From Ehretia macrophylla (lineage: Eukaryota > Streptophyta > Magnoliopsida > Boraginales > Ehretiaceae), in NCBI GenBank assembly GCA_037974665.1, contig CM075778.1:6251001-6315000 (forward strand): a DNA stretch of 64,000 nt, read 5' to 3'. The stretch's first letter is position 1, and each line of letters starts with the position of its first letter. Under the pieces are notes generated by a model. The model ran no database searches. It had not been told where the DNA came from and saw only the letters and a list, made by a program, of their open reading frames with translations. Position numbers and translations under genes: made by a program. Positions 45,811 through 63,016 of this stretch are shown in pieces.

Positions 45811-45840
45811 ACTCAGTCTATCTTTTCTTATTGTTTGTGC

Positions 45841-45858
45841 ATGAAAAATCACAAGTGA
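45841..45858 (+). promoter_or_regulatory. Short upstream ORF in the F-box/kelch leader
   Basis: ATGAAAAATCACAAGTGA encodes five residues in another frame and ends 8 nt before the main ATG. If the transcript starts upstream of 45841 this would be translated first and could lower translation of the main frame. Confidence 0.45.
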
Positions 45859-45866
45859 AACAAGTC

Positions 45867-46934
45867 ATGGAGCTTATTCCAAGTCTTCCAAATGATATAG
45901 GAGTTGAATGTCTAGTTAGAGTTCCATACAAGTATTTCTCATCCATTGCATCTGTATGTCGAAGCTGGAAGCTTCTCATGAAGCTGCCAGAATTCTGGCG
46001 CCATCGTAAGGCAACGGGCTTGACTCAGCAAGTCATAGTCATGACTCAGGCCCGAGTTGACAATACCCAGAAACTCGAACCCGTTAAAAATTCAAAAACC
46101 ACTGTTTATAGACTTACTCTTCTGGAGCCCGAAACAGGTTCTTGGGCTGAGCTGCCTATGGTGTCTAATCACAAGGATGGCTTACCCATGTTCTGTCAGC
46201 TTGTTGGGGTTGGATTGAACCTAGTGGTGATGGGTGGGCTGGACCCTGTTACATGGAAGGTGTCCAATGTTGTGTTTGTTTATAGTTTTGTTTCTGCCAC
46301 GTGGCGACGCGGGGCCGACATTCCCGGCTGCAGGAGATCATTCTTTGCTTGTGCGTCTGATTCTGAGCGGATGGTGTTTGTTGCGGGGGGACATGATGGT
46401 GAAAAGAATGCGTTGAGATCAGCTTTTGCCTATGACATGGCGAACGATGAGTGGGCCCCGTTGCCTGACATGGCAAGGGAAAGAGATGAGTGCAAGGGAG
46501 TTTTTTATTACGGTAAGTTTCGTGTTATTGGTGGATACCATACTGATAGACAAGGTAGGTTTAAGACGAGTATTGAAACATTTAATATTACCAAATGGGG
46601 ATGGGACACAGTTGAAGATGATTTTTTACCAACTCCTATGTGTCCAAGGACTTGCATCAATGGTGGGAACAAAAAGTTTTACATCTGTGAAAATGGTTAT
46701 GTGCTTGCACTTGATGGCTTCAGGTGGCAAATTGTAGCTGAGCTTCCAGCTGATGTGAAGAACACAACATGTGTGACAACATGGCAGGGAAAATTGTTGG
46801 TGATTGGATCTTCAAGATTTGGTGGGCCCCACATATGTTTCGTCTTCGATTTGAAGAGTCATACATGGACAAGAATTGATACCATGGAGGACTTTACTGG
46901 CCACGTTCAATCTAGTTGCTGCTTGGAGGTGTAA
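45867..46934 (+). CDS. F-box/kelch-repeat protein, KFB/KMD (At1g80440-like) family
   Basis: Single-exon gene, 355 aa. Substrate adaptor of an SCF ubiquitin ligase: the F-box binds SKP1 and the kelch propeller binds the target. F-box at residues 1-45 (MELIPSLPNDIGVECLVRVP, SVCRSWKLLM). Kelch blocks follow: LVVMGGLDPVTWKV, PGCRRSFFACASDSERMVFV, AGGHDGEKNA, DMARERDECKGVF, FRVIGGYHTDRQGRF, and a C-terminus ending GHVQSSCCLEV. The MELIP start, ARVD motif and RRSFFACASD block match the Arabidopsis KFB20/KFB1/KFB50 (KISS ME DEADLY) group, known to target phenylalanine ammonia-lyase and type-B response regulators. The start is the first in-frame ATG; codons upstream are open but lack ATG. Specific target here is inference. 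Confidence 0.9.
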   Translation: MELIPSLPNDIGVECLVRVPYKYFSSIASVCRSWKLLMKLPEFWRHRKATGLTQQVIVMTQARVDNTQKLEPVKNSKTTVYRLTLLEPETGSWAELPMVSNHKDGLPMFCQLVGVGLNLVVMGGLDPVTWKVSNVVFVYSFVSATWRRGADIPGCRRSFFACASDSERMVFVAGGHDGEKNALRSAFAYDMANDEWAPLPDMARERDECKGVFYYGKFRVIGGYHTDRQGRFKTSIETFNITKWGWDTVEDDFLPTPMCPRTCINGGNKKFYICENGYVLALDGFRWQIVAELPADVKNTTCVTTWQGKLLVIGSSRFGGPHICFVFDLKSHTWTRIDTMEDFTGHVQSSCCLEV

Positions 46935-52200: not shown

Positions 52201-54838
52201 AAGGACTGATCGCATAACTAATTGCAAATGCAATTCCATAGAAACTCATGGCTGGAATTGAAACATGGAGGCATGAGCAATTCCATCAATACGATTTCTT
52301 TAACTTGATTCCTCCCCAACCAAAAAAAAAGGAACAGAAAAAAAAAACAAAAGATCACATTAAGGGAAAAATAAATATTAGCTGAAAAGGTTAGTTTCTA
52401 TTTTCTCTAATATTTTTCTTTTAATTGTGAACTTGAAATCTCATATATCACACTTTTGAACTTACTTAATCATAGTGAAAACTAAAACTGTGCTCTACTA
52501 AAGTTTCTGGGTTAATAAGCTCATGATATTAGTTTGTCTACACTTCATATTTCAGAGTTCAGCTCACCTAGATGGACATAAAAAGGAATTCCAGTTTTAC
52601 TTTTAAATGGTTCGAACTCAAGAGTTTAATGTAATCTATAATATGTTAAAATCAGAAGTCAAAAAAGTTTCCTATTTTAGGCTCAAGAAACATAAGGGAC
52701 AATATGGGAACCATCCGTTGAACAAAGATACTTGTTGGAATACCATTGTACTTTAAAATATAATAAAATACTAAAAACCCCACTTCCCATATCTCATCCA
52801 CTTCTTTTTGCAAATCCCTGACACAAGACCCATTGGTCTCCAAACCGGAATCAAACTAGTTTATAACTTAAGAATACGTATGAAAGATTTTCTGTAGGAC
52901 CTGCGTCTCACTTCTACCCTTCAGAAACAAAGCACCTCAAATTCAATCTGTTCCTTCACTGTTGTCCAAATTGACATAATTATACAGAAAAGTCTTTTTC
53001 CACTTTCCAACTTCATAACTAAATCAAAGTCTACAATCATTGAAAAAAATGAACATAGAATTTAAACTACTTTATTCTCTAAAAAAGGCCTCGGGAGGAG
53101 GTGCATTTAAAGAAGAGTACTACATCAATTTTTTTTTGAAAAGATCTAGTAATAAGAAGATAATTTGGTCCTAAAGTAACTTCTAAGTTCTACCAAAAGA
53201 GAAAAGAGGGAGCATTTCATAAAAAGGTATATCTTTGAAATCACCATCCCAGAAAGGTTCTGATAACAGCTAAAAAAGAATAATTATTGACAAACCCATA
53301 ATACAGTCGCAAAAACCATAACCAATCTAGGGCAAATGCATAAAGTACATGATACAAAAGAAAAAGAACTAAAATACACGCACTATTACCAGCAGTGGAT
53401 ACACTTCATTCTAGCTGCTAACGTGGTGACCTGGGTTAGTATCTTACTTGTAATTTGGAACCACATTCATGATGGCATCAAATTAAAGCATCTACAAAGG
53501 AGGAGATTGTGACTATTCTTTTTCTTTTAAGAAGTCGGAACCTGAAATAACTGCATTCAACAGCCATTTACTGGTCTTTCACCTAAATTTAATTGCAAAC
53601 TCAATCCTGACTTCAAAACTTAATCCTTTCCACACTTACACTTGAAGATTTAGTGACCCATATAAATTTGCAGAAGAGGTACTTGTTCCAAATTAGGAGT
53701 ATGGGAAACCACAGGTAGCTATATCCCAGCTAGCCTCAGCCTTTGGCTCGTTATTTATCACAAAATAAAGTCATACCAAGCCTCTTTTTGGTTTTGTCTG
53801 TCCACAACCATGTATGCATAAAGCTGAAGCAACAATAGCAGCGACCTCAAGGACTCTCAAATAGAAAACAATAAGGGATATAAGACGAGCTCCTTCACCA
53901 TCATAGTTGATTAGTTGCAAATAAAATCAATTTTGACTAAATGACTGAAATTCATAAAGTATGCATTAATGTGTATTCAAGGCGTAATCAACTATCTCAA
54001 TAAAAGCGTGTGGCATGTACTTGCAAGAAATTTCCACCGACTGCCAAGTCTACATTTATCGATAAAAAGGTTCAATTTTTCCTTCCATTTTTAACAAGCT
54101 TACTTCACCATCAAGAGAAGTGCTAAATAAAATTCATTTACAAATTGACAAGAACTAAAAAAGAAAAAGAAACTAGTAGCAGACCAAACAAACAAATCAT
54201 CCATGCCACCAATAAAAGATCCTACAAATTCCCAAACTAATGTCAATGGTATACCTGTGCCGCCCACCAGCATTGTCCCGAAACCTGTCATCATGCATGT
54301 AAAACGCCCCCGCCGTGGGCACAGCATAGGGCTCATTCTCCTTCTTCTCCTCTTCTCTCTGTTGCTCATTACTAATACCATCATCAACGTTCTCATTCAC
54401 ACCATCATTCCCCCTTCCATCCGCCTCGGTTGACTCCTCCGCGCTCCCCAATCTCTCTGCAACCCCTTCTTTCCCTCCTTCCTCCTCAACCACCCTCTCC
54501 CCCTCTTGGCTACCGCCCGGTCCACGCCCCTCCCCTTCCCTCTCCCCTTCTCCCTGGTGCACGTGCTCTAGGCCTTCCTCCTCATACTCCCCCTCCTCAT
54601 CCTCCATCTCTTCTTCTTCCTCCAAATACTCCTCCTCCTCCTCCTCCTCTTCATCGTCGTAGTCAGCCGGGGCGGCGCCTTGCCCATCCGACTCAACATC
54701 CGAATCGATCCTCCGCGGAGGCTTTTCTCTCCCTTCACCTTCGTCCTCATCATCACTCGCCACCCTCCTCCGCATCTTCAACGACAGCTTCGCCTCCTCC
54801 GGATCGCTCTCGTACTCCACCTCCTCCGCCGCAGCCAT
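49020..54838 (-). CDS. MLN51: MLN51/CASC3 (Barentsz) homologue, exon junction complex core subunit
   Basis: Binds eIF4A3 and RNA in the exon junction complex, acting in mRNA quality control, localisation and translation. Exons (minus): 54838-54255, 52099-51997, 51880-51657, 51557-50713, 50353-50239, 49995-49870, 49524-49469, 49376-49331, 49047-49020; all join in frame to 708 aa. The N-terminus has long Glu/Asp runs. The Btz/SELOR domain spans exons 1-3 (PTAGAFYMHDDRFRDNAGGR, then RTLGGRKLWESKDERKWGHD, residues about 174-215), followed by an RG-rich stretch (GRRSSRGHFRGRGRSRG). The tail has EWKPSQRP and ends NPRRYTEMKFDQ, as in plant MLN51. The last intron (49330-49048) starts with GC (CAG/GCAAGT) and precedes a 28 nt coding end. 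Intron 1 is 2.15 kb. Confidence 0.92.
49185..49215 (+). repeat. 31 bp G homopolymer inside MLN51 intron 8
   Basis: Uninterrupted run of 31 G on the plus strand, preceded by G-rich DNA from 49165 and a CT-rich stretch. On the gene strand it is a C run followed by a G/A-rich stretch, about 120-140 nt inside the GC-AG intron. The length may be a sequencing or assembly estimate. Confidence 0.9.
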
Positions 54839-55045: not shown

Positions 55046-55544
55046 GATTTTTGTGTGTTGGATATAAGAAAATAGAAGCAGATGGATTTGATTTGTTTTT
55101 ATTTTTATTTTTTCCTTTTTATATCTTGATATGGTCCAGTCTTCACCAATCATATGGAGGTTGTATTAATTTTATAGAGTTGGTCAAAGTCTATGTCATC
55201 TGCTTAGATTAAAGGCTAGGATAATGTATTTATCCACGGTGTCTTTCACAAAATTAGTCGTAACTAATTATATAATTTTTATAAATTAACATGTTTAACG
55301 GGTTGGAAATCTCCTATTAAGTTACTAAATAAATTATTTGCACTCTTGATTATTCACGTGTATGTTTTTTTTATTCTAAAATTGAGTAGAGTGATCGAGT
55401 AATTAATTAGAGGAACTAATTAAGTGTTAGCCCCGCATGACCCAAAAAAATTGAAAATCTATACTTTTTTAAAGAAAGAAAATTATAGCAAATTTGAAAA
55501 GAAAAAAAATTGAATCTGCCCCAGATGAAAAAAATTGTGTTATA

Positions 55545-55989
55545 GGCTCCGTTTGTTTGCCGTAAAATAACTTGTTTGTGTAAAATATTTTCCGTGGAAA
55601 GTGTTTTCCTGGAAAATAAAATATTTTACAGGGCTCTGTTTGTTTGCCGTAAAATAATTTGTTGGAGTAAAATATTTTACTGAAAAATAGAATACTGAAA
55701 AATATTTTCTGGTGTTTGGATGTGCCATAAGTTTTGTAAAATGTTTTCTTCTCCCAAAGGACATGAAAACATTTTACATAATTTTGTACTAGCTGTAATT
55801 GTTGACCGGAAAATATTTTACGATTGACCAATTTTTCGGTGTTACCAAACACCGTAAAATTAAGAAAAAGCAGCCGCAATTTTTGACCGGAAAACATTTT
55901 ACGGTTGACCAATTTTCCAGTGTTACCAAACACCGTAAAATCCGAAAAATGTTTTCCGGGAAAATATTTTACAGCAAACAAACGGAGCC
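55545..55989. mobile_element. Foldback MITE with GGCTCCGTTTGTTTGC ends
   Basis: GGCTCCGTTTGTTTGC at 55545 is the reverse complement of GCAAACAAACGGAGCC ending at 55989. TATA flanks both sides (55541-55544 and 55990-55993). A second copy of the end motif occurs inside at about 55636. Much of the element folds on itself. An internal direct repeat (ATTTTTGACCGGAAAA...TGTTACCAAACACCGTAAAA) appears at about 55797-55859 and 55879-55941. Ends of this type are common in hAT-like plant MITEs, but an 8 bp duplication is not seen. Confidence 0.75.
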
Positions 55990-56358
55990 TATAGTCTCAT
56001 GAATTGTTTTCTATAGTCACAAAAAGCAAGTAGAACAATAAAATTGGACAATGTTATGATTTTTTTTTCCATACAATAGAGATTGAAATTATAGTTTAAA
56101 TTTGAAATATTTTTATTTTTTACTAATTATAAATTTAAAATATTTAATTACAATAAATCACTACCAAATCATTTCACTCAATTCTATCGAATTAGGATTT
56201 CATCATTGCATTCTCTTATATAATTTCATTAAACTGTGGCAATTACACCATTCTAGAGATGATAAAAAAAAAACAAAAACAAAAAAAAACAAAAAAAAGA
56301 CAAGGCTAGTTTAGTCTACCAGTTGACGCAATTGTACAAACTTTAATGAATTACAAAT

Positions 56359-56837
56359 CTATAAAATAAAATTATTGGGGTCACAAGTTCCTCTCTCGCA
56401 ATTATCCACACAGCTTCCAACTTTGTCAACATCTGTCACAAACAACACATTCATATAGTCACACTAATTATGACGACAAATTATTAATTTGTATGGAAAA
56501 AAATGTAAGTATAAATTATGTCACATAAATGAATAATTTTGTTATCGAACAGAAAAAAAAAAAAAAAACACAAAACCTTTGAGGAAGAGACTTTACCATC
56601 GAAATATTGAGCACACTGTTCAACGGAACAACCAAGATTGCAGTAATAGAGATGATTTGGAGTTTTAGTAATGAGGCATTTCACTACGCATTTAATTGCG
56701 CAAGGAAGTTTAGGTTCAAAAAGACAACCAACTATACAACCCCCAAAACAACGTTTGAAAGTTGCTGTTGTATGACCTGCAAATAAGAGCAATAAGAACA
56801 TCATGGTGGAAATTACTCGAACATTCTTCGCCTCCAT
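56359..56837 (-). CDS. Thionin-like secreted cysteine-rich peptide 1
   Basis: Two exons on the minus strand, 56837-56597 and 56432-56359 (GT-AG, phase 1), 104 aa. The N-terminus is a clear signal peptide (FLLLLFAGHTTA core, cleavage likely near residue 25). The mature part has spaced cysteines: FKRCFGGCIVGCLFE, CAIKCVVKC, YYCNLGCSVEQCAQYF in exon 1, and GSCVDNCERGTC in exon 2. The pattern and the intron position fit the plant thionin-like protein family, putative extracellular defence-related peptides. A TATA box lies about 97 bp upstream. The second-exon acceptor (TTTGTGACAG) was chosen because it restores the family C-x3-C-x4-C ending. No direct activity can be inferred. Confidence 0.82.
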
Positions 56838-56933
56838 GGTTAGTTTTTTTTTTTTTTTTTCTTCTCTATTCTCTATGTCTAATCACTTCGAATGTGGACT
56901 TGAATATTGGAAGAACACATCCTAAGGTGCACC

Positions 56934-56940
56934 ATTTATA
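56934..56940 (-). promoter_or_regulatory. TATA box of thionin-like gene 1
   Basis: Minus strand CTATAAATGG, about 97 bp upstream of the ATG at 56837. Confidence 0.6.
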
Positions 56941-56944
56941 GATT

Positions 56945-57807
56945 AAAATCAGTAAATCAAATTAACTACTTGTTAAATATTTTTTTCCACATATAGGTAT
57001 GAATCTCCAATGAGATAGCATTTATTATTTAAGATAAGAGTATAACTTGTTTAGTATCTATGAGATACGAAATGAATATGAAACATCAAGGCCATTTAGC
57101 ACAAGATCCTTAAGAATTTAATCCTTAAATTTTTTTTGTCCCTTTCATGTATGACTAAGCAAAGAATTTAATGACAAGAAAAGGACTATGAGAAAATATA
57201 TATCTATTATATAACTTACGGAGTCCAATACAAACTACATATCCAATGCATAGAAACATTTTTTTTCTTACTTGATTTCGACGCATATTTAATGGAAAAT
57301 ATTTTTGTCTGAAAAATAACAGGGACTAAATTGATTAATTTTGAATAATAAAAATAAATTTAAATTTTTTAAAAAAATAATAATGACTAAATTTAAAATT
57401 TTAAAAGACATCTAAGCCACATGCCTTTTAGTATTCAAGCAAGCACCATTTGAAGCACTAATACCAAAATTGGTCTCTACTTTGCATGTCAGTCACCAAT
57501 GATGCTTTTTACAGATTAAATGATAGTTTATTAGAAAATATTAGTGCAATATTGTCACAGTTCAAGTTCAGAACTCTGAATCCGCTATCAAGATTAGTGT
57601 TATAAATTTAAAAATAACTATCTTGAGCCTCAAATCTACCAAAACAAGTTAGTTAATTCAAATTATTACTTTAAACCTATAATACTAATTTATAAACTAC
57701 ACTTTTATCATAACATCCCAAATACAGTGACAATTCTGAGCTGCTAACAATTGTAGGCTAGGTAAGATCTTCCCCCTCTCAGTTTTATTTCCAGATGTTA
57801 GTTATTT
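56945..57807. other. Intergenic DNA with foldback fragment
   Basis: No gene seen. About 57315-57405 (CAGGGACTAAATTGATTAATTT...) is a fragment of the foldback family found at 770 and 10737. About 57590-57660 (AGTGTTATAAATTTAAAAAT...) resembles 62365-62430 inside the intron of thionin-like gene 2, so a dispersed repeat is shared. Confidence 0.5.
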
Positions 57808-59304
57808 GGGCAAAAACCATTTTAGTCCCTGAGGTTTTAGCTAAAGACCAACTTGGTCCCTCAGTTCTGTCAAAAAACCAAAATGGTCCCTGCCGTTAAG
57901 TTGATTCCGTTATAATTAACCAACTTAAGGATATTAATGTCATTTTACACTTCAATAATAATAAATAAATAAAAATTGAAAGATTGATTCAATGGACAGT
58001 GGTATCCTCAACCCTTCCTTATCTCTAACGTCAAGTCACACACAAACACACAATTACACGGCGAAAGTTTGCTGTAAAACGAACATGTACCTTTAATTTT
58101 TTTTTTTAACTCTCGTATCTCTTCTCTCGCACAACACAAACACACACTATAACTAACATGAACTCTCCTTCATTTACCACCCAAAAAAAAAAATGAAAAA
58201 GATTTTGAAACGAATTTGAAAAAAAGCATCGATGTCGTTTTGACTCTAATCAAACCGGAAAAAATCTCTGATTTCTTTCACATCTCTCTGTATTGTGATT
58301 ACTTCATCAAAGTGAACCTCTGAATATCTATAACTATCCCTAAAGCTACATTTGACCTAACTAGATTCAAACAACAGTGTTGTGTTAAATTTTTTTAGCT
58401 TAGTTACCAAGTTTTTTTTCTTGAATTTCTTGTCTTTTGCTTAAAACCCAATAAAGAAAACTTAATTTTTTTGTGCCTCTATTGCTGTTTTTTACATTTT
58501 TCACCTCTTAGTATCATATTTGCTCATAATTAACTTACCATTAAGTTTGAAACTTTTTCTATAACTATTTCTCCTTACAGTTCTTTTCTTTTGTTTAAGA
58601 TTCTAGCTTTGGTTATGTATATGCTTGTAATTATATAGGTTTTCTGTTTAATTTATGGATAGTTGAGAATTTTATGTGATATTGGTTTGTGTTATATCAA
58701 AGCAACAGTCTTTTGTTGAATTTTTTTTTAACTTGTTTCAGTCACTAATTTTTGGAGGTTTTATGTTCTTGGTCCTTATAGTTTTGCAGATTGGAAGTTG
58801 TTTTATGTATTGGTTATGCAGAGTGGTATTTTAAAAAATAGTAGATTGAAGAAGAATGGCTTGTCTTGGATCAATGGAGAGCTTGGTAGGGCTGATTTTG
58901 CTATTTATCTTTTCAATTTCGGATGCATACACCAATCCTACAGATGGTAAAGTTTATTATAGTTATGTATTTGTTAATTCATTTGCTGTTTAATTGACCG
59001 AAAACTTAGTACATGAAAATGGATTGTGTAATTATGATCGTATGAAATTAATTCTATCCATGACTTGTTTATTCACTGTAAATTGACTAAAGATTCTTGC
59101 AATGGCTATCCTTTAATTTTTTTTTTCCCATTCAATACATCAGCAACAGAACTAAAGGGCAGGGGCATAAAGGTCTTTGCATTCGGTCAACCCTTTGACC
59201 GTTAACAGCACACTAACAGTAGGGACCATTTTGGTTTTTTGACAGAACTCAGGGACCAAGTTGGTCTTTAGTTAAAACCTCAGGAACTAAAATGATTTTT
59301 GCCC
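57808..59304. mobile_element. Putative Pack-MULE: TIR element carrying a gene fragment
   Basis: Long terminal inverted repeats: 57808-57895 (GGGCAAAAACCATTTTAGTC...) and 59217-59304 are reverse complements with only about five mismatches in roughly 88 bp. Flanks TTAGTTATTT (57798-57807) and TTACTTATTT (59305-59314) match at 9 of 10 positions, a target duplication of the size made by Mutator-like elements. There is no transposase. The interior contains a leader-like region and a coding exon with splice donor (58856-58946) that resembles the start of a host gene, which defines a Pack-MULE. Confidence 0.78.
58856..58946 (+). pseudogene. Captured first coding exon, SRF-type LRR receptor kinase-like
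   Basis: ATG followed by 30 codons: MACLGSMESLVGLILLFIFS then ISDAYTNPTD, i.e. a signal peptide ending at a typical Ala site plus a short mature start. It then splits in phase 1 at G/GTAAAG, a good donor. A likely acceptor (GTTATGCAG at 58813-58821) ahead of the ATG suggests a 5' untranslated intron. 'A.TNPTD(V)' directly after the signal peptide with a phase-1 intron is what I recall for STRUBBELIG-receptor-family genes. No second exon (LRR part) is found before the right TIR. The parent gene is inference. Confidence 0.55.
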
Positions 59305-59651
59305 TTACTTATTTACACGACCCTGCACTACTTTGGTTAGGTTCTTGTCACCACAATAAGCACTGAGCAATATCTCACACCATACGCACCCGATAGCCTA
59401 GCAACAAATAAGGAGAAGTAATATCTGACAAGTCTGGATTTAAAATTCCTTAGCTACTTATTAGGTTCACACTTTTTACTGACTTAGAGTATGTGTTGAG
59501 GCGCACCGCCACATTCATAAATTTATCAGTTAGTGGTTAACAAAAAAAAAAAAATTTCTCACACCATACATTGAGCACCATGTCAAATAGTGCTCCTCCA
59601 CTTGCTTCATCATTATTTTATGGAGTTCAAAGCTGAATTACAACTCAGTAG

Positions 59652-59676
59652 ATATATATATATATATATATATATA
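59652..59676. repeat. (AT)n microsatellite
   Basis: Uninterrupted alternating AT of about 25 bp. Confidence 0.9.
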
Positions 59677-60301
59677 AAAGCCAATTATACATGCTTTTTA
59701 GTATTTGGACTAACATGTTTGACCAATAAGTGCGTAAATTCTCGAGTGCAGCGGTGCTCTCTCCTCCTCCCAACATGCACCAAATTAGTAAAAGATAAAA
59801 TTATAAAATAGTGAAGAGTTTTGAATATGCGATCTCACAAAAACGATTTCACTTCCATTATTACTGGATCATGCACCCAGTAACACTTTTTTTTTTTGCT
59901 AAGTGCCCCCAGTAACACTTGATCAGAAATAAGCCATACAGATTCCATTGGCTGCCCACTCAGTAAGCAAAGGAATATGTTTTTCCAAAAAAATGGATTG
60001 GCATCTTTGACTTATTAGGCTTCATATGCTAAGTTTTTCAAAAAGACCATCTATGATGGAAGGAAAGTTATCAAGCCCCAATTGGGAATTAAGTGATCAA
60101 TTTTTTGTTTTCAACAAGCAACTCACCGGGGGTAAGACTTCATTGGTTTATGGCAAGACTATAAATTTCGTGATATATAAAGGTAAATTTATAAAAAAAA
60201 TTCGGTGTAGACTAAAATACATAATTTTTTAATTATATGAGTATATATTTTTTTTAGTAGGAGTTAATTAATTTTTTTGACTAAGTATACATAAATTTTT
60301 T

Positions 60302-60313
<12 letters not shown>

Positions 60314-60341
<28 letters not shown>
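60314..60341. repeat. (AT)n microsatellite
   Basis: Uninterrupted alternating AT of about 28 bp, after an A run. Confidence 0.9.
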
Positions 60342-60345
<4 letters not shown>

Positions 60346-61932
60346 TAACCTTTTTTTGGATTAGTAATATACATCCACCAACGACTAAACAATTTTTGTA
60401 ATAGGATGACATGAGTTTGAAATTAAAAATATGAACAATCATCACCTAACATCATGCATAGTGCAACCCGTGAATGGAATATATGAGATGAGACAAACGA
60501 TGGCATGCTAGGAAATTGCAGCCTCCAAACGCATGGTTACAAATTTCCCCTCCGTTTGTGGTTCCTCTTCTTGCAGGGCGGAAAAAAAGCTATATTTTAT
60601 TTGATCACATTATTAAATTTATCATGGAAGTCATCAATAATTTATGCAGCTTCTGAATTTTTCTTTCCTTTCTTTTGACATTTGAATTTTTCTTTCCTCA
60701 GTTTCTTGATTTCTACTTCTGATTTTATGCAGAAATTTAAAAGGCCGAAATTCAGTAACAAACAGGTAATGCATTCCCCAACTCCCCACAGGGCGCTTAT
60801 ACCAATGTTAAGGATTCAGATCGAGTTTCAAAGTACTCTTTCATTTAATTTAAAAAGACAGTTAGTTACATAAAATTCGATTACGCACTAAATTAAAAGA
60901 AAGATGATAGTCATTTTAGATAGCATTAACCTTACATTTTTATAAGTAATTATTTTCAAAATTCGAACCTGTACTATAATAATTTTATCAATGCGCCAAG
61001 CTTCCCTTCTATTTTCATTCTACTTAGGGAAGTAAAATAACATGATTGTATTATGTCATTAAGGCAAGCAACTGAAAATGCTGATAGTAAAAGTATGGTA
61101 TTTTAAAAGTTTAAGATATTAGAGAGTAATTTTTTTATATATAATTACATTCAATACATTTTTTCATGTGTAGATAAGGTTCATTTTGAGTAACGCACAT
61201 GGATAATTTTTCATTTCAATTGACATTAAGGAAGGAAAATGACTTAATACCAATTTGACCAGATTTGTCTTTAAATAAGTGACGGTGAAACTTAAATTTA
61301 AAATGGTTTGGTAACTTAAATTTAAACACTATATTTACTAGCCCCATTTAAAAATTTAAATTATTTTAAATAAATCTATTATATTTATTTATCATTCATG
61401 TTGGAGCTGCACAAACATCCATTTCCATGGGCTGCCGAGTTATCTAATTATCCAACTTAGACCACTGAACCAAAACGACAAAAAATGTTCACATGTTCTT
61501 GTGCTATTAGATCAACCGAATACCAAAGATAGAAAATTATTCTCTTCTTTTATATGCAATGTTTTAGTTGTATATTACAGCCCCACATATTTACAGAAAT
61601 AAATCTATTCATAATGTTATTAGTGTTATGAACAAGATCTAATAATTACAAATTGTTAATTACAGAACATTTGACGTAACATAGATAATAATGAATAAAT
61701 AAGAGTTAATATCATTCAATTGTCATGAGGAATCCTTCCAGTAGTATCGGCCATTTACCCCACTTCCCTCCACATTTAATCAAGTGGTTGTGTTATCCAA
61801 TAAAAAGACCTATTTATCATATAACTATTATAATGAAAGATATATTTTTAGATAATGAATATACAAAGATAGAAATGATGTAAATAGTTCACAACTGTTA
61901 GATTTCGTCACGTTATGGTAACACTTACATGT

Positions 61933-61940
61933 TATATAAA
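61933..61940 (+). promoter_or_regulatory. TATA box of thionin-like gene 2
   Basis: TATATAAA in ATGTTATATAAAACC, 78-85 bp upstream of the ATG at 62018. Confidence 0.6.
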
Positions 61941-62017
61941 ACCTTCACAAGACCAAGTGATAGGTACAGCTTAAGATCTGCCTGATAGGCCACATCATAC
62001 CTTGAGCATAGTGACAA

Positions 62018-63016
62018 ATGGAGGTCAGGAAGTTGAGAGCACTTGTAATGGTGGTAATGGCTTTTGGAGTGCTGATAGGACAATCTTCTGCTTCTTTCAA
62101 AGATTGCTATGCTAAATGCTTTGTTTTTTGTATGATTGAGCCTTCTCAGACTATTTGTACCTGCGCTACTAGTTGCTTGAAGAGTTGCATCTTCTCAGAT
62201 AGCCCACAAAGTCTTCAAGATGATGATATGAATAAGAATCACAACTTCTGCAAGCTTGGTTGTGCTTTCTCTATGTGCTCTGGTGTTAGCTCTAAACAGA
62301 AACCTAGTAAGTATATATGTTATTCTTCCTTTTATCTCTCTTCATGTCATGCTCGAGAGTAGAACTAGTGTTATAAGTTTAAAAATCATTATTTTGGACC
62401 TCAAATTCTAAGGAACTCGAGTTATTACATGAAATCAAAGTACTCACTTATTATGTCTCCTACTAATGTGTGACATTACAATCACTACCGTTGAGGACAT
62501 AAAGTCCTCTTCGGGACCATAGTCACTCAGGACTAATACTTGCTCTAAATTCCTTTCTATCATTTCCCAAGCCTGAAATCTCATACCCACAAGCAAGTCG
62601 TATTCAAAAATTCTTCTCGATAGGGGTTAAAACATATAATTTTTCAACTATGTAAGTACTTATGTTTTTAGCAGGGCTAATTAATTTATTTAACTAAAAA
62701 TACATAGATGTTTAATACATGAAAATTTTAACGCTCTTTTCGGCTAGTGGGAGAACCTAATGTACATCTACTATCGTTTGCAAACAAGACTAGTATCACT
62801 AATCCATAATCCAGAATGGTATCTAAGTTTAAACCCGCAACACTCACCACTAGAGGACTCACTTATCATATTTCTCCGATGTGAGACACTGCACACACTC
62901 ACATACCCGCACAGCCTCGCATGCTAACTTCACTTGTCTATTCAGATGCAGAGAAAGTTGATGGCTGTGTGGGATCCTGCTCCAAGATGTGCACCAAGAA
63001 CTACTTGTCACCTTAG
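62018..63016 (+). CDS. Thionin-like secreted cysteine-rich peptide 2
   Basis: Two exons, 62018-62306 and 62946-63016 (GT-AG, phase 1), 119 aa. Signal peptide at residues 1 to about 26 (VMVVMAFGVLIGQSSA). The mature region has FKDCYAKCFVFC, CTCATSCLKSC, NFCKLGCAFSMC and, from exon 2, DGCVGSCSKMC. It shares cysteine layout, start context (SFKDC versus TFKRC) and intron phase with the gene at 56359-56837, so they are diverged paralogues in opposite orientation. It differs by an insertion of about 10 residues (SPQSLQDDDMNKNHN). The 639 bp intron holds repeat-like sequence. Intron retention would add a different tail ending at 62362. Function is inferred from family only. Confidence 0.85.

Follow-up and report, generated by a model that had tools for sequence, protein, structure and literature searches.

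A Pack-MULE-type element of Ehretia macrophylla with the putatively captured 5' end of an SRF receptor-kinase gene

The window analysed here is a 64-kb stretch of the Ehretia macrophylla genome (C15:6251001-6315000; the genome comprises 1,579,978,469 bases in 20 contigs). It contains an ORF for an F-box/Kelch protein (45831-46934, + strand), an ORF with a CASC3/Barentsz eIF4AIII-binding region (54197-54838, - strand; PF09405, E 7.8e-13), and two small Cys-rich secreted ORFs at 56484-56837 (-) and 62018-62362 (+), which by eye we take to be thionin-like and for which no Pfam family was found at E up to 0.01. Between these last two ORFs, just where the initial annotation had placed it, lies an insertion whose parts are collected in Table 1. 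Its inverted arms are 91 nt each and 93% complementary, so the inverted ends described in that annotation are present, but at this length instead of 88 nt. The target duplication was rightly called near-perfect: its two sides agree at nine of ten positions, and agreement at this level or better (at least 9/10) occurred in 0.0245% of 200,000 random 10-mer pairs drawn from 56001-62000. Also as described, the interior holds a signal-peptide exon of 30 codons with a donor; this ATG exon is 91 nt long, encodes MACLGSMESLVGLILLFIFSISDAYTNPTD plus a split codon, and ends at GATG|GTAAAG (58946/58947).

Table 1. Parts of the element and its target-site duplications, in window coordinates.
Feature	Position	Strand	Remarks
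Left target-site duplication	57798..57807	.	ttagttattt
Left terminal inverted repeat	57808..57898	+	Found terminally in other copies too
Left subterminal backbone, pyrimidine-rich leader	57899..58073	+	Common to elements with other interiors
Segment A	58074..58371	+	Donor-like CAA(A/G)|GTGAAC at 58312/58313
Captured SRF leader-intron end	58372..58789	+	Acceptor-like ttttgcag ends at 58789; alignment to C5 parent
Captured SRF 5' UTR	58790..58855	+	Alignment to C5 parent; splice site inferred
Captured SRF first coding exon	58856..58946	+	30 codons + 1 nt; signal peptide by eye
Captured SRF intron 1 start	58947..59101	+	Donor gtaaag; 3' junction with CAAC
Right subterminal backbone	59102..59213	+	T-tract and acceptor-like catcag ending at 59143
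Right terminal inverted repeat	59214..59304	-	
Right target-site duplication	59305..59314	.	ttacttattt

Stop-to-stop stretches that overlap the element reach 72 codons at most, and no Pfam family was found at E up to 0.1 in the ten of its 29 stop-to-stop stretches that were searched, which agrees with the earlier statement that the element has no transposase; an Rfam scan and a tRNA scan were both empty. The terminal inverted repeats of Pack-MULEs typically measure 100-500 bp. The 91-nt arms fall below that range and above the limit of at least 50 bp that the available portion of PMC3310237 gives for elements with multiple TIRs. The same portion describes a target duplication of 9-11 bp with at most two mismatches, and such a duplication flanks five of the six scored copies presented below, C19b being the one that fails. 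The stretch 57808-59304 belongs to the Pack-MULE kind of non-autonomous Mutator-like elements, and as an element it goes beyond chance because the same interior recurs at six further genomic places.

The gene that contributed the exon can be traced by alignment. Over window 58372-59102, the sequence at C5:52682067-52682776 shows an 86% match, gaps included; broken down by region, the differences number 34/381 for the leader intron, 6/68 for the UTR, 5/91 for the coding exon and 12/155 for intron 1. Past the breakpoint, the C5 gene continues through intron 1 to exon 2 (AAINNLYVALGSPTLPGWVATGGDPC...) and further on has Pro-rich and hydrophobic stretches (by eye) and kinase exons; Pfam finds LRRNT_2 and kinase domains in it. 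This layout agrees with the Arabidopsis SRF domains as given in the available part of PMC1855328, where signal peptide, SUB domain, LRRs, proline-rich region, membrane helix and kinase are listed. The C5 gene has a paralogue at C9:33.127 Mb, whose exon 2, compared with solved structures, matched SRF6 (28wb_A) at E 6.3e-6, the other four structure matches having E values of 0.078-0.097. On these alignments the parent of the captured exon is identified as a kinase gene of the STRUBBELIG-receptor family (SRF) located at C5:52.682 Mb, and the capture as window ~58372-59101, comprising the end of the leader intron, the ATG exon with its donor, and the start of intron 1. The initial annotation had proposed a Pack-MULE with the 5' end of an SRF-like receptor kinase, and had suggested searching the genome for a parental gene free of TIRs. 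The proposal held up: the parent aligns as described, and with seven elements as queries none of the family's end regions were detected in 37 kb around it. A further SRF fragment, at C16:72.8355 Mb (L031 8009-8255), spans the whole of intron 1 and reaches into exon 2, after which comes a degraded right end; its left side has been replaced by other, LTR-like sequence (by eye). This fragment may be an independent second capture or an older, longer form, and the intron 1 divergences, which are 12/155 each way among the window, the C5 parent and C16, fit either.

The SRF piece does not account for the whole interior. The stretches 57808-58073 and 59102-59304 form a backbone that is common to elements with other interiors (L029, L021, L030, L016 and C15e), and segment A, about 300 bp long, belongs neither to this backbone nor to SRF. 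The earlier view of the interior as captured gene stands for 58372-59101, and does not extend to 58074-58371, which is of other origin. A genome search with 57985-58400, a stretch that spans segment A, gave 15 matches (13 of 13 candidates scored); seven copies of the element are among them, and the others are pieces, 72-86% alike, at six further places, three of which (L035-L037) hold related copies of a single repeat, at most ~2.2 kb long. We rejected segment A as a part of the SRF parent, having obtained only short, mostly low-complexity matches in 37 kb around the parent and at the C9 locus. Its derivation from a second host gene found no support: the genome search returned the element copies and the pieces just listed, and no source gene was found among them.

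With the interior (57900-59213) as query, at least 47 places in the same genome gave matches (40 of 61 candidates scored), most of them end regions or short pieces only, and the search with 57985-58400 included seven full or near-full matches, the window among them (13 of 13 candidates scored). End-to-end alignment puts the other copies at 98.4% (C19:40.095 Mb, here C19a), 96.9% (C1:63.097 Mb), 91.7% (C19:36.29 Mb, here C19b), 91.6% (C10:34.685 Mb) and 89.8% (C13:33.177 Mb) identity to the window copy; the copy at C6:65.945 Mb stands at 84.4%, a figure depressed by insertions that are forced against the right end. The window copy and those at C19:40.095 Mb and C1:63.097 Mb are the group most alike. 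Both ends align in five of the six other copies, the left end of C6 being degraded. Target duplications are 10/10 in C19a, C1 and C10, each with different flanks, 10/11 in C13 and 6/10 in C19b (C6 was excluded from scoring). Seven copies with differing flanks and target duplications therefore make this a mobile family. The initial annotation had named an ordinary non-coding MULE family in many identical copies as one outcome that would speak against it; the family is indeed multi-copy, with seven members, but its source is a gene. Two of the copies have peculiarities of their own. In the C6 copy (L034), the left leader is interrupted by ~315 nt of inserted sequence with fold-back halves, and the right backbone has a second insertion, of ~470 nt, within its T-tract. 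The left backbone of C13 has ~86 nt that are absent from the other six of the seven SRF copies and that align to L029 and L021 with local scores of 60 and 57, the largest score among 200 shuffles of L021 being 25.

Comparison of the older copies with the window copy gave, for exon, intron 1 and leader intron respectively, 7/91, 6/154 and 29/396 differences in C10; 7/91, 15/155 and 25/415 in C19b; 6/91, 14/143 and 31/415 in C13; and 6/91, 12/155 and 31/413 in C6. The exon drifts about as fast as its own introns, which over 91 positions is compatible with weak constraint. In C19b the exon is frameshifted, and C13 has neither the donor (it reads AT) nor the acceptor-like AG. Segment A differs from that of the window at 36/378 positions in C10, 40/376 in C19b, 47/367 in C13 and 45/378 in C6, and the right TIR of C19b differs at 10/91. 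The SRF part, introns included, thus has fewer differences between older copies than segment A and mostly fewer than the right TIR, a pattern that plain drift at a single rate leaves unexplained. Transitions make up 30 of the 40 segment A changes between the window and C19b, and we tentatively attribute the excess in segment A to transitions in more methylated parts. The window copy is most likely a transposon copy without host function, because its exon drifts like its introns.

A host function could nevertheless be imagined if the family had been exapted as a mini-gene, in which the left end would serve as promoter and the ATG exon would be spliced from 58946/58947 to 59143/59144, giving a secreted peptide of 50 aa. 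The spliced frame is open to its stop at 50 aa in six of the seven copies, but frame and both splice sites are intact together in only five of the seven, with C13 and C19b dropping out through the defects just described. An AG behind a T-tract stands at the acceptor position in 8/8 elements counted (each known lineage is represented once, and four more come without interior comparison; 14 rows were aligned), and the same 20-codon frame follows it in the window, C10, C13, L029, L021, C15e and C3e; yet the conservation covers the whole right end, beyond the AG, and L030, L016, L039R and L044R read another frame behind it. Among the 14 aligned right ends, C13 has lost the AG, and the AG of C16 is SRF's own acceptor. 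Together with an exon whose substitutions equal those in the introns, this leaves a mini-gene quite improbable. Somewhat more doubtful still is the suggestion of the initial annotation that the window copy supplies a promoter and a signal peptide to neighbouring exons, for which we found no support. The donor is good, the exon lies on the + strand with a same-strand ORF 2.7 kb downstream, and fusion transcripts are known for Pack-TYPE elements (PMC8903248, in its available part), but that downstream ORF, at 62018, has its own ATG and a signal-peptide-like start, and the exon is without detectable constraint when set against the introns. A segmental duplication or Helitron-type capture in place of a TIR transposon would explain the gene fragment itself and nothing further, and is scarcely credible in view of the matching inverted ends and the fresh 10-bp duplications at separate sites. 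We consider it very likely that the family is a MULE of the Pack-MULE kind, whose ancestor copied ~730 bp of the SRF 5' part beside ~300 bp of other DNA and was then mobilised to seven sites.

The SRF element's ends are shared by other lineages. One of these, which we call the NAF1 lineage, includes L029, L021, C15e (C15:25.557-25.560 Mb) and C3:45.098 Mb, and the interior of its elements includes an acidic exon end (MEEGEIMESEADEMIAWSDEDDEDGAGGNSMKGPI..., varying slightly between them). The loci of this lineage are L029, L021, L040/L020 and L041/L024, with the donor at C5:52707328-52707807 (L048). A genome search with L040:3495-3850 gave 16 matches (16 of 16 candidates scored), and element ends were examined for L029, L021, C15e and C3:45.098 Mb among them; the same query matches C5:52707328-52707611 at 93% and C9:33090080-33090357 at 76%. 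The C5 gene has a Gar1/Naf1 domain (PF04410, E 4.4e-15), as does its C9 paralogue (E 6.1e-16), and we take the C5 donor to be NAF1 rather than GAR1 in view of its long acidic and tail regions. No element ends were detected at the C5 NAF1-like gene when seven elements were run against the 37-kb SRF-parent region. Close to this donor, C15e has a further match of 202 nt (C5:52703379-52703575, 74%), which we do not regard as a capture, since the lineage members L029 and L021 are without that stretch.

On C5, 24,552 bp separate the SRF and NAF1-like donor pieces, which share a strand and are both sense with respect to the element; two glycosyltransferase-like ORFs (named by eye) stand between them. 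Their C9 paralogues are ~36 kb apart and keep the order and strand seen on C5; the neighbourhood therefore predates the captures. The chance of a random pair falling within 24.6 kb is ~3e-5 (2 x 24,552 / 1.58e9, by hand), a figure that is too low to be fair, given that captures favour genes and that three donors make three pairs. The third donor belongs to L030, a third lineage with the same ends, most of whose interior occurs at no fewer than seven places (40 of 138 candidates scored), on C8, C13, C11, C12 and C10 and twice on C1; its first ~330 nt recur at a minimum of about thirty further places at 78-89%. By alignment, the likely donor is the candidate C17:40746623-40747506 (L053), which is 93% alike to L030 element 487-1352 and without L030's ends, and because this candidate is on C17 the L030 lineage falls outside the C5 donor cluster. 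That two of the three donors with a known place share a neighbourhood suggests, within the limits of so small a sample, capture near a resident element. A fourth interior between the same ends is found in L016 (C3:10.91 Mb), with a target duplication of 10/10 by eye.

At the SRF 3' junction, CAAC is common to the parent (TTCTTGCAAC|TGCAAG) and the backbone. The copies read GCAAC|GTCTATC in C10 and GCAAC|AGCTATC in C13, and other backbones read CCCAACGGCCATC and CCCAACAGCTATC there, with L029 and L021 differing. At the NAF1 5' junction, CGAAAGTT is common to the parent (AGCGAAAGTTCATC) and the SRF-lineage backbone (ACACGGCGAAAGTTTGCT), with one letter changed in L021 and C10. Such short shared words would fit template switching; alternatively, the SRF lineage may have kept CGAAAGTT from a previous NAF1 capture, in which case the captures would have been serial. 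Within the Pack-MULE reading, an ancestor with the same ends would have copied C5:52682067-52682776, a stretch delimited by alignment, between its ends. The copying probably proceeded through template switching at short shared words during repair of a broken or excised element, for which CAAC at the SRF 3' junction and CGAAAGTT at the sister lineage's NAF1 5' junction are candidate switch words, and a MULE transposase acting in trans would presumably then have mobilised the product into seven copies. We speculate, quite tentatively, that one backbone took SRF and NAF1-like pieces in separate lineages because an element was once resident in or near their neighbourhood and used the adjacent DNA, at short words in common, to fill gaps during repair; this we hold to be possible rather than probable.

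Multi-copy Pack-MULE gene fragments are already well known, as the available parts of PMC3310237, PMC8903248 and PMC13317346 attest. Like the Pack-MULEs of rice, tomato and Arabidopsis, among them tomato PM-ZIBP (PMC3310237, available portion), the present element is non-autonomous, has inverted ends and a 9-11 bp duplication, and carries a gene fragment whose parent lies elsewhere and which occurs in several copies with different duplications. It differs from elements of the PM-ZIBP type, as far as that portion describes them, in holding an SRF signal-peptide exon with its donor, in its shorter TIRs (91 nt), and in that its backbone recurs in lineages that captured different sequences, two of which derive from genes close to each other. 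With Pack-TYPE transposons (PMC8903248, available part) it has in common a TIR architecture that shuffles exons and could in principle provide splice sites. A parallel for the proposed mechanism comes from animal Pack-TIRs (gap-filling, FoSTeST; PMC8277862), in which, according to the accessible sections, capture occurs by template switching, sometimes from nearby DNA, and breakpoint microhomology has been examined. In those same sections, the bias towards nearby parents, and with it gap filling from nearby DNA, is inferred for single-copy animal elements, multi-copy ones having distal parents, whereas we see multi-copy plant lineages and detected no element at the donor locus; plant captures are described there as often coming from other chromosomes, and the origin of Pack-MULEs as perplexing.

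Taken alone, the element adds one Pack-MULE to those known, one whose parent and copy history are unusually easy to read. That the donor of a sister lineage lies near the SRF donor hints at how such elements pick up genes. Should an element once have sat there, Pack-MULE donors would be expected to cluster around earlier insertions and would bear directly on gene acquisition, and such clustering is testable genome-wide with the families found here. Among the open-access papers listed in our searches, none was seen to describe a Pack-MULE carrying a captured signal-peptide exon, and none clustered Pack-MULE donors, most subscription journals lying outside the scope of those searches.

A candidate for the transposase partner was encountered on C12, where pieces of the MULE transposase domain (PF10551), with E values of 0.0025 and 1.4e-4 that fall short of Pfam's cut-off, sit ~2.1 kb inside a related right end that is 73% alike. 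The transposase there is broken and a search of ~10 kb revealed no left end, so that no intact autonomous partner was found. Lastly, a dispersed repeat with translations like 'NKLFYGKQTEPCKIFYF' is seemingly present, by eye, at window 55469-55981 (-), at C5:52701097-52701633 and at L033 8689-8931.
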